A DNA stretch of 64,000 nucleotides from Methanococcoides methylutens. GTDB lineage: Archaea; Halobacteriota; Methanosarcinia; Methanosarcinales; Methanosarcinaceae. The stretch covers positions 124,001-188,000 of the forward strand of contig NZ_JRHO01000009.1 of NCBI RefSeq assembly GCF_000765475.1, written 5' to 3'. The notes under the pieces are model-generated. The model ran no database searches. It was not told where the DNA came from and worked only from the letters and a program-made list of their open reading frames with translations. Every line of letters begins with the position of its first letter. The first letter of the stretch is position 1. The position numbers and the translations under genes are program-made. Positions 36,663-62,647 of the stretch are shown piece by piece.

Positions 36663-36896
36663 GGATCGATCTCTGATCTTAGTATCAAATGAACTGGTCG
36701 GCCGCTCAGGCTGACCGATAAGTTTAAAATAATTGCTTCATTATTGAAGTGCTCGTAATTGAGATGAAAATCTCCTTACTTTAACCGTAGTAGGCCGTAG
36801 CGGTCGCATCGGTTGGCATGCAATCTCGTGTGCCCGCCGGATACGGGGTCTGACCCTGTATCTGAACATTTGTTCATTAACTACGGGAGGAATAGA
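36663..36896 (+). promoter_or_regulatory. Structured leader of the rpl1-rpl10-rpl12 operon
   Basis: The 234 bases hold a series of hairpins. GGTCGGCC/GGCTGACC is at 36696-36716 with one G-T pair. CTTCA/TGAAG is at 36736-36749. GAGAT-GAAA-ATCTC, with a GNRA loop, is at 36761-36774. GATACGGGGT/ACCCTGTATC is at 36840-36862, and GAAC/GTTC follows it. TTTAAAATAA near 36723 could be the TATA box. In other archaea uL1 represses its own operon by binding the mRNA leader, so one of these may be an uL1 target. Confidence 0.55.
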
Positions 36897-59026: not shown

Positions 59027-59797
59027 ATGGCAGGGCCACTTTTCTCCTATGTGGGGGGAAACTCTTTTCTCCACAACATGGACCCTCGGGCGAAGATAAT
59101 CTCTGTGATGTGCCTGAGTATTTTGATATTCAATGTTTCCGTGCTGTCTCATCTGTTCGTTCTGGCAGTTCTTTTTGTGATGCTGACAAACATATCAGGC
59201 GTGAGCATATCCCTGGCTATACGATCCCTCCGTCCAATGGTCATCTTCTTTGGTTTTATTTTTCTTATCCATCTGTTCTTTACAGACGGAAATCCGATAT
59301 TTTCTCTTGCCTTTTCACCAACATACGAAGGCCTTGAAAAAGGGGCAGTTGTTGCCGGTCGTTTCATCCTGTTGATCCTATTTGGTTCCCTGCTAACTTC
59401 CACCACAAGACCGGCTTTGATAACCAGTGGGATAGAGCACTTGCTTCGTCCTCTTCCTTTAAGAAAATTGGGGACCACTTCTTTTGAAGTGGCGACAATG
59501 ATGTCACTGGCAATTTATTTTGTTCCACATCTGCTGTGGTATGTGGGGCAGATCAAGGATGCTCAGATGTCTCGCGGGTTGAAGTACGGTCATCATCCTG
59601 TATCTGGAATGTTATCTCTGGCAATACCTGCTTTGAGAGGTTCAATGCGTATGGCTGATGATATTGCACTGTCAATGGAGTCCCGTTGCTATCAGGGGAA
59701 TTATCGCACATCGCTCTTTGAAATGAAAATGGCAACATCTGATCTTCTTATCTGTGTCTTCGTAGTTTTTGGAACAGCGCTAATTTTATATGCATGA
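59027..59797 (+). CDS. ecfT: ECF transporter transmembrane component EcfT
   Basis: The 256-residue protein has about six membrane helices and starts FLHNMDPRAKIISVMCLSIL, where DPRAK is the hallmark of EcfT. A coupling segment follows with KDAQMSRGLKYG and the second coupling helix, where SMESRCYQGNYRT carries the conserved Arg. It scaffolds BioY and both ATPases. The gene begins directly after the second ATPase stop, and the operon ends here before the ArsR gene. Confidence 0.92.
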   Translation: MAGPLFSYVGGNSFLHNMDPRAKIISVMCLSILIFNVSVLSHLFVLAVLFVMLTNISGVSISLAIRSLRPMVIFFGFIFLIHLFFTDGNPIFSLAFSPTYEGLEKGAVVAGRFILLILFGSLLTSTTRPALITSGIEHLLRPLPLRKLGTTSFEVATMMSLAIYFVPHLLWYVGQIKDAQMSRGLKYGHHPVSGMLSLAIPALRGSMRMADDIALSMESRCYQGNYRTSLFEMKMATSDLLICVFVVFGTALILYA

Positions 59798-59815
59798 GCA
59801 CATGTTCATATTTTC

Positions 59816-60172
59816 ATGGTAACATCCCATACATGTGAACTGGTAGATAAGGATGCTATAAACTCCCTTATATCCAACCTTCCTGGAGACGATGCAATAG
59901 TGAGGGTATCCAATATCTTCCATGCACTTCAATCAGGTCCCCGCCTGAAGATCATGTATCTCTTGCTGGAAAAAGAAATGTGTGTATGTGAACTTGAATT
60001 TGCGCTTAAGATGAGCCAGTCAGCGATATCTCACAATCTTCGCACTCTTCGCCAGCTTGACCTTGTCAGGACCAAAAAGAAGGGTCGTTTTGTTGTCTAT
60101 TCAGTTGCAGATGAGCACGTAAAAATGCTACTTGATCTGTCTCGCAAGCATGCCATGGGGTGTGAATTATGA
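59816..60172 (+). CDS. ArsR/SmtB-type metal-responsive repressor
   Basis: The 118-residue protein has a winged helix (SGPRLKIMYLLLEKEMCVCE then MSQSAISHNLRTLRQLDLVR). Cys56 and Cys58 in MCVCELEFAL form the alpha-3 metal site of ArsR-type sensors for As, Cd or Pb. A C-terminal Cys116 and nearby His may add a second site. It overlaps the permease start by ATGA, so the repressor most likely controls that permease and itself. The inducing metal is not certain. Confidence 0.88.
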   Translation: MVTSHTCELVDKDAINSLISNLPGDDAIVRVSNIFHALQSGPRLKIMYLLLEKEMCVCELEFALKMSQSAISHNLRTLRQLDLVRTKKKGRFVVYSVADEHVKMLLDLSRKHAMGCEL

Positions 60173-61293
60173 GCGTTGTTGCTTCCATTGCAGAAGCACT
60201 CTCAGGTATACTGATCGAGTCATGGCATATCTTTGCCGAGGCTGCTCCTTACCTGTTGCTGGGCTTTGGTATAGCAGGTTTATTGCATGTTTTCGTTCCG
60301 GATGATAAAGTAATGCAGTATCTGGGCAGCTCTGCAGGAAAGTTCAGGTCTGTTCTCAACGCATCTATTTTAGGGGTACCTCTGCCACTATGCTCCTGCG
60401 GTGTCGTGCCTGCTGCACTATCTCTTCGGAACAGGGGTGCTACAAAAGGTGCAACTCTCTCATTCCTGATCTCGACCCCTCAGACAGGGGTGGATTCCAT
60501 TGCTATAACCTATGCCCTTCTTGATCCAATAATGACAGTCTTCAGGCCGGTGGCAACATTTGCTACTGCTGTTGTCGCGGGCGTGACCGAGAATATATTG
60601 AACTTTTCAAAGGAAGTGCCGGGTAAGGTTCCGCTATCTAAAAGTTCAGTACCATTAGCGGTGCTTCCAATGACCTCTGCCACGCCAGACGCCTGTGGAT
60701 GTGATTCATGTGGTGGTCCTGAAAAAGAATCCGGGAACTTTGTGGGGAAAGTGAGGGCTGGCATAAAGTACGCTTACATTGAACTACTTGGGGATATCGG
60801 TTTCTGGCTTATTATCGGAGTCGTAATTGCAGGTATTATCTCTTACTTCGTACCAGCGAACATGGTGGGCAGCTATCTTGGTGGCGGAATTGGGTCCATG
60901 TTGCTTGCTCTTGTTGTGGGGATACCACTTTACATCTGTGCAACTGCTTCCACTCCACTTGCAGCGGTTCTTATCTTAAAAGGGATGAGTCCAGGTGCCG
61001 CATTCGTGTTCCTGCTTGCAGGACCGGCTACTAACGCAGCCACGATCACCATGGTACTGAAATTCCTTGGTAAAAGGACCACTGCAGTTTATCTTGCATC
61101 AATAGCATTGTGTGCAGTTATCAGTGGACTCGTTCTCGATCAGATATACTCAAGTCTGGGCACCGATGCACTTTCAATAGCAGGAAGTGCCAGTGAGATC
61201 ATGCCTGATGAAGTAAAGAACGTTTTTGCAGTATTGCTACTACCATTGTTGGTGTATGGCATGTACAGTAGAATAAAGTGTGTTGAAAACTAA
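60169..61293 (+). CDS. DUF318/SO_0444-type permease, probable metal or metalloid efflux
   Basis: The 374-residue protein has about eight to ten membrane helices in two halves. Half one has VPLPLCSCGVVPAALSLRNR and SFLISTPQTGVDSI; half two has VGIPLYICATASTPLAAVLI and AGPATNAATITMVLK. The CSCG and CATAST motifs pair across the halves as a likely substrate path. A loop carries CGCDSCGG. Related permeases are linked to arsenic (ArsP) or Cu/Zn export. With the ArsR gene it makes a two-gene resistance unit. Part of its 3' end was duplicated downstream. Confidence 0.85.
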   Translation: MSVVASIAEALSGILIESWHIFAEAAPYLLLGFGIAGLLHVFVPDDKVMQYLGSSAGKFRSVLNASILGVPLPLCSCGVVPAALSLRNRGATKGATLSFLISTPQTGVDSIAITYALLDPIMTVFRPVATFATAVVAGVTENILNFSKEVPGKVPLSKSSVPLAVLPMTSATPDACGCDSCGGPEKESGNFVGKVRAGIKYAYIELLGDIGFWLIIGVVIAGIISYFVPANMVGSYLGGGIGSMLLALVVGIPLYICATASTPLAAVLILKGMSPGAAFVFLLAGPATNAATITMVLKFLGKRTTAVYLASIALCAVISGLVLDQIYSSLGTDALSIAGSASEIMPDEVKNVFAVLLLPLLVYGMYSRIKCVEN

Positions 61294-61665
61294 TGCTATA
61301 ATGCTATCTGTTTCAATGGTTCTGATTGTGCCTGTGATCAGATAACATGTTTCGCATACGCTCTTTGAAAGAGTCGATGATAACATCGCCTACTTCTTTA
61401 TCGTCGAGAATCATACGGTTATTGACCATTGTGTGATTATCGACAGCATCCTCTTTTTCTTCAGATATTGGGATGGCAACAATTTTACCGAAACTTTCAG
61501 GGTACTTTATGTGGTTGTTCTTCCATGAGAAATCGTGTTTTTCCATTCGAGTCACTTCCAGCGCACATCTTGACGATATATCCTCAAGTCTGACTATGTT
61601 GGTGGTGGTATATATAAGTCACGATTAGTACTTAATATATTTAGATATCCATTCTTATATGTATC
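61232..61665. repeat. Tandem duplication, copy A
   Basis: This segment holds the last 60 bases of the permease gene, the 77-residue minus-strand gene and its promoter. It is matched by the stretch 477-478 bases further on. The best-conserved parts are 61311-61372 and 61569-61586. Confidence 0.8.
61313..61546 (-). CDS. Small hypothetical protein, duplicated gene copy A
   Basis: ATG 61546 follows GGAAGTGACTCGA, giving 77 residues (MEKHDFSWKNNHIKYPESFG and onward). The C-terminus is FKERMRNMLSDHRHNQNH, nearly identical to copy B at 61790. No family is recognised. The N-terminus carries aromatic and charged residues and one YPESFGKIVAIPISEEK segment. A TATA box (TTATATATACC, minus) is near 61608-61618. 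The His-rich tail could bind metal, in line with the neighbouring metal permease, but that is a guess. Confidence 0.7.
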   Translation of the reverse strand: MEKHDFSWKNNHIKYPESFGKIVAIPISEEKEDAVDNHTMVNNRMILDDKEVGDVIIDSFKERMRNMLSDHRHNQNH

Positions 61666-61708
61666 TGATTGCAAAATTTGCAGTATAAGTTTATATTTTT
61701 AAATTGAT

Positions 61709-62190
61709 CCATTACTGCTACTTTTGTTGGTGAATGGTATGTGCCATGGAAATGGGTGTGTTGAAGATGATGCTATGCTGTTATCTCTTTCAATGGTTCT
61801 GATTGTGCCTGTGATCAGATAACATGTTTCGCATACGCTCTTTGAAAGTGTCGATGATACCATAACCAATTTCTTCATCACTGAGTACATTATGATCATT
61901 GGTCATTGTATGGTCCTCGGCAGCATTCCTTTTTTCTTCATATATTGGGATTGCAATTATTTTTCCGAACCTTTCCGGATACTTTTTTTCTTCAAATACT
62001 GGCTTGGGAACTATTCTCCTGCACCTTTCCGGATACTCGATCTCGCTGTTTTTCCATGAGAAATCATCTTTTTTCATTCGAGTCACTTCCACCACATGAC
62101 TTGACGATATATCCTCATGTTTAACTATACATTTATTGTTATATATGCATCACGAGTAATAATTAATATATTTAAAGATTCATTCTTTAC
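61709..62190. repeat. Tandem duplication, copy B
   Basis: The left end (61709-61775) repeats the 3' end of the permease gene: it translates in part as LLLLLLVNGM and GCVEDD beside the original LLLPLLVYGM and KCVEN. It has no start and is a remnant. The rest matches copy A, including the small gene, its leader motif and a TATA box near 62135. Confidence 0.8.
61790..62077 (-). CDS. Small hypothetical protein, duplicated gene copy B
   Basis: ATG 62077 follows the same GGAAGTGACTCGA as copy A, giving 95 residues (MKKDDFSWKNSEIEYPERCR and onward). Compared with A it contains a second internal copy of the segment YPERFGKIIAIPIYEEK, so the two YPER segments are adjacent in this protein. The C-terminus FKERMRNMLSDHRHNQNH equals that of copy A. 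Middle regions differ at many sites while the last 20 codons are almost the same, suggesting gene conversion or selection on the tail. Function is unknown. Confidence 0.7.
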   Translation of the reverse strand: MKKDDFSWKNSEIEYPERCRRIVPKPVFEEKKYPERFGKIIAIPIYEEKRNAAEDHTMTNDHNVLSDEEIGYGIIDTFKERMRNMLSDHRHNQNH

Positions 62191-62647
62191 TGATCTCATT
62201 GAGAAATTCTCAACGCTTGCCTCGACATTTCTAATTATGTTGAATCAGCTGCAGGGGATCACCAATTTCCTGGTAATTTTCAATTTTAAGCCCTTGAAAT
62301 TATAGAACTGAGAATAGGTGGAAGGCTGAATGGAATATTGGATGAAAGATTGGATGGATGGTCCTAATATGTTAAAATTTGAAGATCATCATTGTTGGAT
62401 TTCCTTTTGTTCATACTTCCAATCCGATCATCTATCTTTATAAATGGAAAGTTTCAATTATTTATTACCTTTTTTCTTATTATTTATATTATGTATGTGT
62501 CGATTGATGTCGTTTTTAGAAGTTAACAGTGATAAATAAATACGATATCTTTATGTATAGGTCACCTTTTTAATCGATTAGTTAAAGGCCAGTTTGAAAG
62601 GCCAGCATTCAAATTGTTCATTTCATGAGATAAAGGAGTTGTTTTGG
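62191..62647. other. Leader region before the hydantoinase-like gene
   Basis: These 457 bases hold no convincing gene. AAAGGCCAG occurs twice (62584-62592 and 62597-62605). AAAGGAG precedes the next start. AT-rich tracts near 62470-62560 may include a promoter. Confidence 0.4.

Follow-up and report, generated by a model that had tools for sequence, protein, structure and literature searches.

Methanococcoides methylutens carries two adjacent copies of a small minus-strand gene next to a predicted metal permease, and we put at roughly 0.85 the probability that they derive from one old tandem duplication that was followed by gene conversion, divergence, a nested repeat in one copy, and the probable loss of a unit in Methanococcoides vulcani. 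The window, that is, the whole stretch of DNA analyzed, comprises 64,000 nucleotides, and its genome (G000) holds these two copies of the small gene and no further one.

A direct repeat carrying a small gene and the end of its neighbor

In a self-comparison of the window, positions 61233-61679 aligned with 61711-62208, 351 of 446 ungapped columns being identical (local score of 349, compared to a maximum of 31 in 300 shuffles). The only gaps were one 54-base insertion in copy B and two single-base gaps, and the start-to-start offset was 477 bases (478 in the permease tail). The repeat contains the permease tail, the convergent small minus-strand gene, and the promoter of the latter, and the similarity of the two adjacent direct copies reaches past the coding regions on both sides, as in a tandem segmental duplication. 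The features of the locus are as follows.

59794..59809, no strand: palindrome ATGAGCACATGTTCAT (ATGARCAYATGTTCAT-type) over the cbiQ stop and the arsR start, candidate ArsR operator
59816..60172, plus strand: ArsR/SmtB-type regulator gene, upstream of the permease gene and overlapping its start by 4 bases
60169..61293, plus strand: permease of the ArsP_1 / SO_0444-type Cu/Zn efflux transporter family (Pfam PF03773, NCBIfam NF033936), convergent with gene A
61226..61703, no strand: duplication unit A (permease tail, small gene A on the minus strand, leader, promoter)
61313..61546, minus strand: small gene A, 77 aa, with DFSW, GKIVAIP, a predicted C-terminal helix, and the LSDHRHNQNH tail; start set from conservation
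61634..61642, minus strand: TATA-like AAATATATT, 96 bases before the ATG of gene A
61704..62210, no strand: duplication unit B (orphan permease tail, small gene B on the minus strand, leader, promoter); right edge approximate
61711..61765, plus strand: orphan decayed copy of the last permease codons, stop codon lost (family D3, 75%)
61790..62077, minus strand: small gene B, 95 aa, with an 18-codon internal repeat
61986..62039, minus strand: 54-base insertion of copy B, an in-frame internal tandem repeat (YPERCRRIVPKPVFEEKK / YPERFGKIIAIPIYEEKR); edges alignment dependent
62165..62173, minus strand: TATA-like AAATATATT, 96 bases before the ATG of gene B

The left edge of unit A, near 61226, was set from two relatives (G001 and G005) in which the copied tail extends slightly beyond that of the window.

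A preliminary description of this DNA had proposed a tandem duplication of the small gene, its promoter, and the permease tail, to be abandoned if an alignment revealed no similarity outside the two small coding regions. Both flanks match, the self-comparison that it called for returned a direct repeat far above the shuffles, and the duplication is confirmed, with a junction common to three species. The two genes indeed end in the same LSDHRHNQNH and lie 477 bases apart, with stop codons at 61313 and 61790. The decayed permease end reported before the second gene, TTACTGCTACTTTTGTTGGTGAATGGTATG (LLLLLLVNGM) beside TTGCTACTACCATTGTTGGTGTATGGCATG (LLLPLLVYGM), is a real remnant as judged from its score: the permease tail alone scored 40, whereas the highest of 2000 shuffles reached 31, and this was the best match in the 64 kb. 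In G001, the tail copy is 81% identical to the permease over 21 residues. The description was thus right about the unit and slightly off about the direction of the event, as neither gene is the parent of the other: unit A retains the native 3' flank (the intact permease), unit B retains the native upstream flank, and the sole orphan part is the permease tail inside unit B.

The most likely starts of the small genes are the ATG codons at 61546 (A) and 62077 (B), each immediately preceded by GGAAGTGA; the upstream GTG given by the ORF finder was rejected because only the ATG is conserved in relatives. A spacing of 96 bases between AAATATATT and the ATG is common to both copies of G000, G001, and G005 and to the single copy of M. 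vulcani (G004), and a TATATA box lies about 70 bases before the ATG in both copies and in the G004 gene. Outgroups have nearly the same spacing, and we regard these boxes, which resemble the consensus, as putative promoters. Both leaders additionally harbor a near-perfect palindrome (TTGASGATATATCSTCAA / TTGACGATATATCCTCAA, at 61570-61587 and 62101-62118) that occurs nowhere else in the window (0.1 expected) and is weakly kept in relatives.

Age of the duplication and history of the two units

We found the small gene at the same place in 9 of the 11 genomes of the genus, in the order cbiQ, arsR, and permease gene (forward), small gene (reverse), and hydantoinase-like gene (forward); the G009 contig stops short of the hydantoinase-like gene. 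The two remaining genomes (G003 and G008) harbor the permease and hydantoinase-like genes with no small gene between them, and because of this, the small gene is, on the evidence of these genomes, dispensable over evolution. Regarding the presence of copy B in relatives, a check that the preliminary description had suggested, two copies were found in G000, G001, and G005 and a single one in G004, G010, G007, G006, G002, and G009. One and the same junction, at which upstream sequence of unit A runs into the permease-tail copy, is common to G000, G001, and G005; therefore, their copies go back to a single duplication that predates those species. Both parents of the junction hold a T run with a G nearby (GTTTTTG in the permease and, in G005, ATTTTTG in the upstream flank), which would suggest joining at a short microhomology, although a few extra bases are present in the junctions of today.

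We propose that a segment of about 477 bp was duplicated in tandem in a Methanococcoides ancestor, after the split from the G010/G007 lineage and before the separation of G000, G001, and G005 (and probably G004). The duplicated segment would have comprised the final codons of the convergent permease gene and the small gene with its promoter, giving rise to two genes, each with its own promoter. Gene conversion between the neighboring units would then have prevented their 3' parts from diverging and, in G001, have renewed the orphan permease tail as well, and the promoters of A and B would have drifted apart. In the ancestor of G000 and G001, copy B would have gained its nested 18-codon repeat, and its middle would have changed rapidly; the B-type gene of M. 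vulcani is most likely what remained after recombination had deleted one unit.

The loss in M. vulcani is the step on which the trees leave most room for another reading. The neighbor-gene tree was (((G000,G001),G005),G004), with G010 and G007 outside, and this position of G004 as sister to the other three (79%) is what one would expect had M. vulcani branched off before the duplication, its single gene merely resembling B. The SH test does not reject such a history. Against it, the tree of gene plus promoter groups the B copies with G004 at 95%, the upstream flank and the N-terminal codons of the G004 gene are of the B type, and the promoter partition, short as are all the partitions that we submitted to the AU test, weakly rejects a duplication after the G004 split (AU p of 0.04). 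We thus consider an early branching of M. vulcani possible but rather doubtful; loss of one unit, which rests on one node, explains the data most simply.

According to the preliminary description, the ends of the two copies are nearly identical and the middle parts have diverged. The former holds at the 3' end of the gene, holds approximately for its first codons, and fails at the promoter end, where A and B differ at 20 to 32% of the positions, while the latter is correct and can be refined to a gene-conversion mosaic with a nested 54-base repeat in B. In G000, 15 of 29 synonymous sites differ between A and B in the first part of the gene, whereas none of the 11 such sites in its last 22 codons does (Fisher p of 0.003). 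Gene conversion is the best explanation of the near identity at the 3' end, as far as can be inferred from these comparisons. Strong selection on RNA or DNA, through antisense overlap with permease transcripts, a terminator, or a metal-binding tail, could also hold the 3' ends together, and indeed, the gene is convergent with the permease gene and the C-terminal motif FKExM..LS is a conserved feature of the family. However, constraint would have kept G010 similar too, and the same 22 codons are near synonymous saturation relative to G010 (8.5 of 12 sites differ). Furthermore, the permease-tail copy, which is no longer part of a permease, was also homogenized in G001, and the HRHNQNH-type tail is found only in the subclade of G000, G001, G004, G005, G010, and G007, endings such as CKKE or ELHKK being found elsewhere. 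Taken together, we regard selection as an improbable source of the 3' identity.

Conversion is also indicated by conflicting trees. In the permease tails, G001A pairs with G001B, the two differing at 5 to 8% (about 30% between the tails of G000B and G001B), and the promoter follows orthology; for the permease-tail partition, the orthologous tree was rejected (AU p of 0.008 to 0.01) and conversion in G001 was favored. In the 3' part, G005A and G005B share bases that other species lack, but for the 3' gene end alone the AU test does not reject the orthologous tree (p of 0.06 to 0.16).

In the middle of the gene, the B copies of G000 and G001 sit on a long, well-supported branch. The 54-base repeat, identical to the neighboring unit at 42 of 54 bases, is present in G001 too and absent from G005. 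One may ask whether B is decaying and on its way to becoming a pseudogene, as its nested repeat, its strongly diverged middle, and the degenerate GKIVxIP motif of the extra repeat would suggest. Yet the frame is open, the second motif is intact, and the promoter boxes and the ribosome-binding site are kept. In addition, dN/dS between G000 and G001 is about 0.15 for B and about 0.3 for A, figures that rest on about a dozen changes per pair. Decay is hence unlikely in our view, and both copies look like selected protein genes, which makes a gain in dosage, and after it the divergence of B, the likely effect of the duplication. The repeat and the fast middle of B could instead reflect relaxed constraint. 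We also entertain, tentatively, a distinct role for copy B, with its doubled GKIxxIP and its own diverged promoter, for instance with another partner or under another growth condition; if true, this role would have arisen within an undescribed small-protein family tied to an ArsR-permease locus of methanogens.

Finally, a history without gene conversion, in which the segment was duplicated independently in G005 and in the ancestor of G000 and G001, is very improbable. The 3' gene end alone does group G005A with G005B (76%) and is best described by that tree, but the junction is identical in all three genomes and the promoter partition rejects this history (AU p of 7e-8).

Tandem gene duplication followed by gene conversion and by loss through recombination between the units is a well-known process of ordinary gene-family evolution. 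The locus resembles it in its adjacent direct copies, in its mosaic of homogenized and diverged parts, in the return of one species to one copy, and in the orphan fragment of a neighbor gene that marks the duplicated unit. There is no difference in kind; here, the process can be followed across a set of related archaeal species, and a second duplication is nested within the first. A literature search on duplication or conversion in Methanococcoides found nothing on this locus, which offers a small, clean archaeal case in which a duplication, conversion, a nested repeat, and a probable loss can be mapped onto a species tree.

The permease operon and the small-protein family

The permease is of the SO_0444 type, a putative Cu/Zn efflux transporter: it matched Pfam PF03773 at 8.7e-50 and NCBIfam NF033936 with 416.9 bits, above the family cut-off of 300. 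The ArsR/SmtB-type regulator matched NF033788 with 89.6 bits (cut-off of 55). The operon beside the small gene is therefore a clear member of the type that pairs an SO_0444-family (NF033936) / ArsP_1 permease with an ArsR/SmtB regulator. Unlike this operon, the small gene lies on the opposite strand and lacks the arsR palindrome, and it is missing from most genera possessing an SO_0444-type permease. The palindrome at 59794-59809 is conserved in nine genomes of the genus, with one base off in G010 and G007; a second match in the window, at 36863, lies where a ribosomal protein gene begins and was taken as chance. We looked for the arsR-type palindrome before the small genes and did not find it, and because of its absence there, we rejected ArsR control of the small gene and consider co-regulation by that ArsR unlikely.

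A profile built on 22 members placed the small protein in five genera of the Methanosarcinaceae (186 genomes of the order searched); a marginal match in a sixth genus (E of 0.0097) was taken as chance. Residues M1, D5, F6, S7, W8, G20, I22, I25, P26, F60, K61, and S69 are invariant or nearly so, and the hallmarks of the family are DFSW, GKIVxIP, and a C-terminal helix. None of the 22 members scored above a curated cut-off in Pfam or NCBIfam, and the locus thus draws attention to a conserved Methanosarcinaceae family without an entry in either, beside a metal or metalloid permease. A PDB profile search gave no significant hit (best E of 0.17). The AlphaFold model, shallow as it was made on three sequences, had a mean pLDDT of 60.5 and fair confidence only in the C-terminal helix (residues 49 to 75). 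The role of the small protein is probably an accessory one, and its chain is likely flexible over most of its length, with two short motifs that are conserved and a helix at the C terminus.

A relation of copy B to TsoX (NF045809), a small (seleno)protein in NCBIfam, was dismissed as chance: the likeness is a weak score seen in copy B only (E of 0.015 to 0.017; 15.3 bits for a cut-off of 52), that is, in 1 of the 22 members. We likewise rejected metal binding by the His-rich tail as the function, this tail not being conserved in the family.

The small gene lies tail-to-tail beside the SO_0444-type permease gene in 34 of the 35 genomes having it in genera g1, g3, and g4, the exception being a 70% complete genome in which no permease was detected. 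In genus g8, the permease is located elsewhere and the small gene stands between cbiQ and the hydantoinase-like gene. The small protein may serve the permease or be no more than its neighbor.

Four genomes of genus g8 (probably Methanohalophilus) have a TAG in place of the conserved Ser codon of DFSW, and their small-gene frame is otherwise preserved (L057:3516-3710, minus; L058:3096-3290, plus; L059:3286-3480, plus; and L107 in G070). Pyrrolysyl-tRNA synthetase is encoded in both TAG-variant genomes tested (G030 and G067). The TAG may be read as pyrrolysine, the changes between genomes being too few to tell this from decay. Another genome of this genus (G017) holds a truncated small-gene copy with a TGA, and G068, also of g8, holds three dispersed copies of the family (L060:3443-3649, L109, and L110), one of which is flanked by cbiQ and the hydantoinase-like gene. 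In genus g4 (L118 in G073, L034, and L061), the gene beyond the small gene, or beyond the permease gene where the small gene is missing, resembles a ModE-type molybdate regulator on inspection of its sequence by eye.
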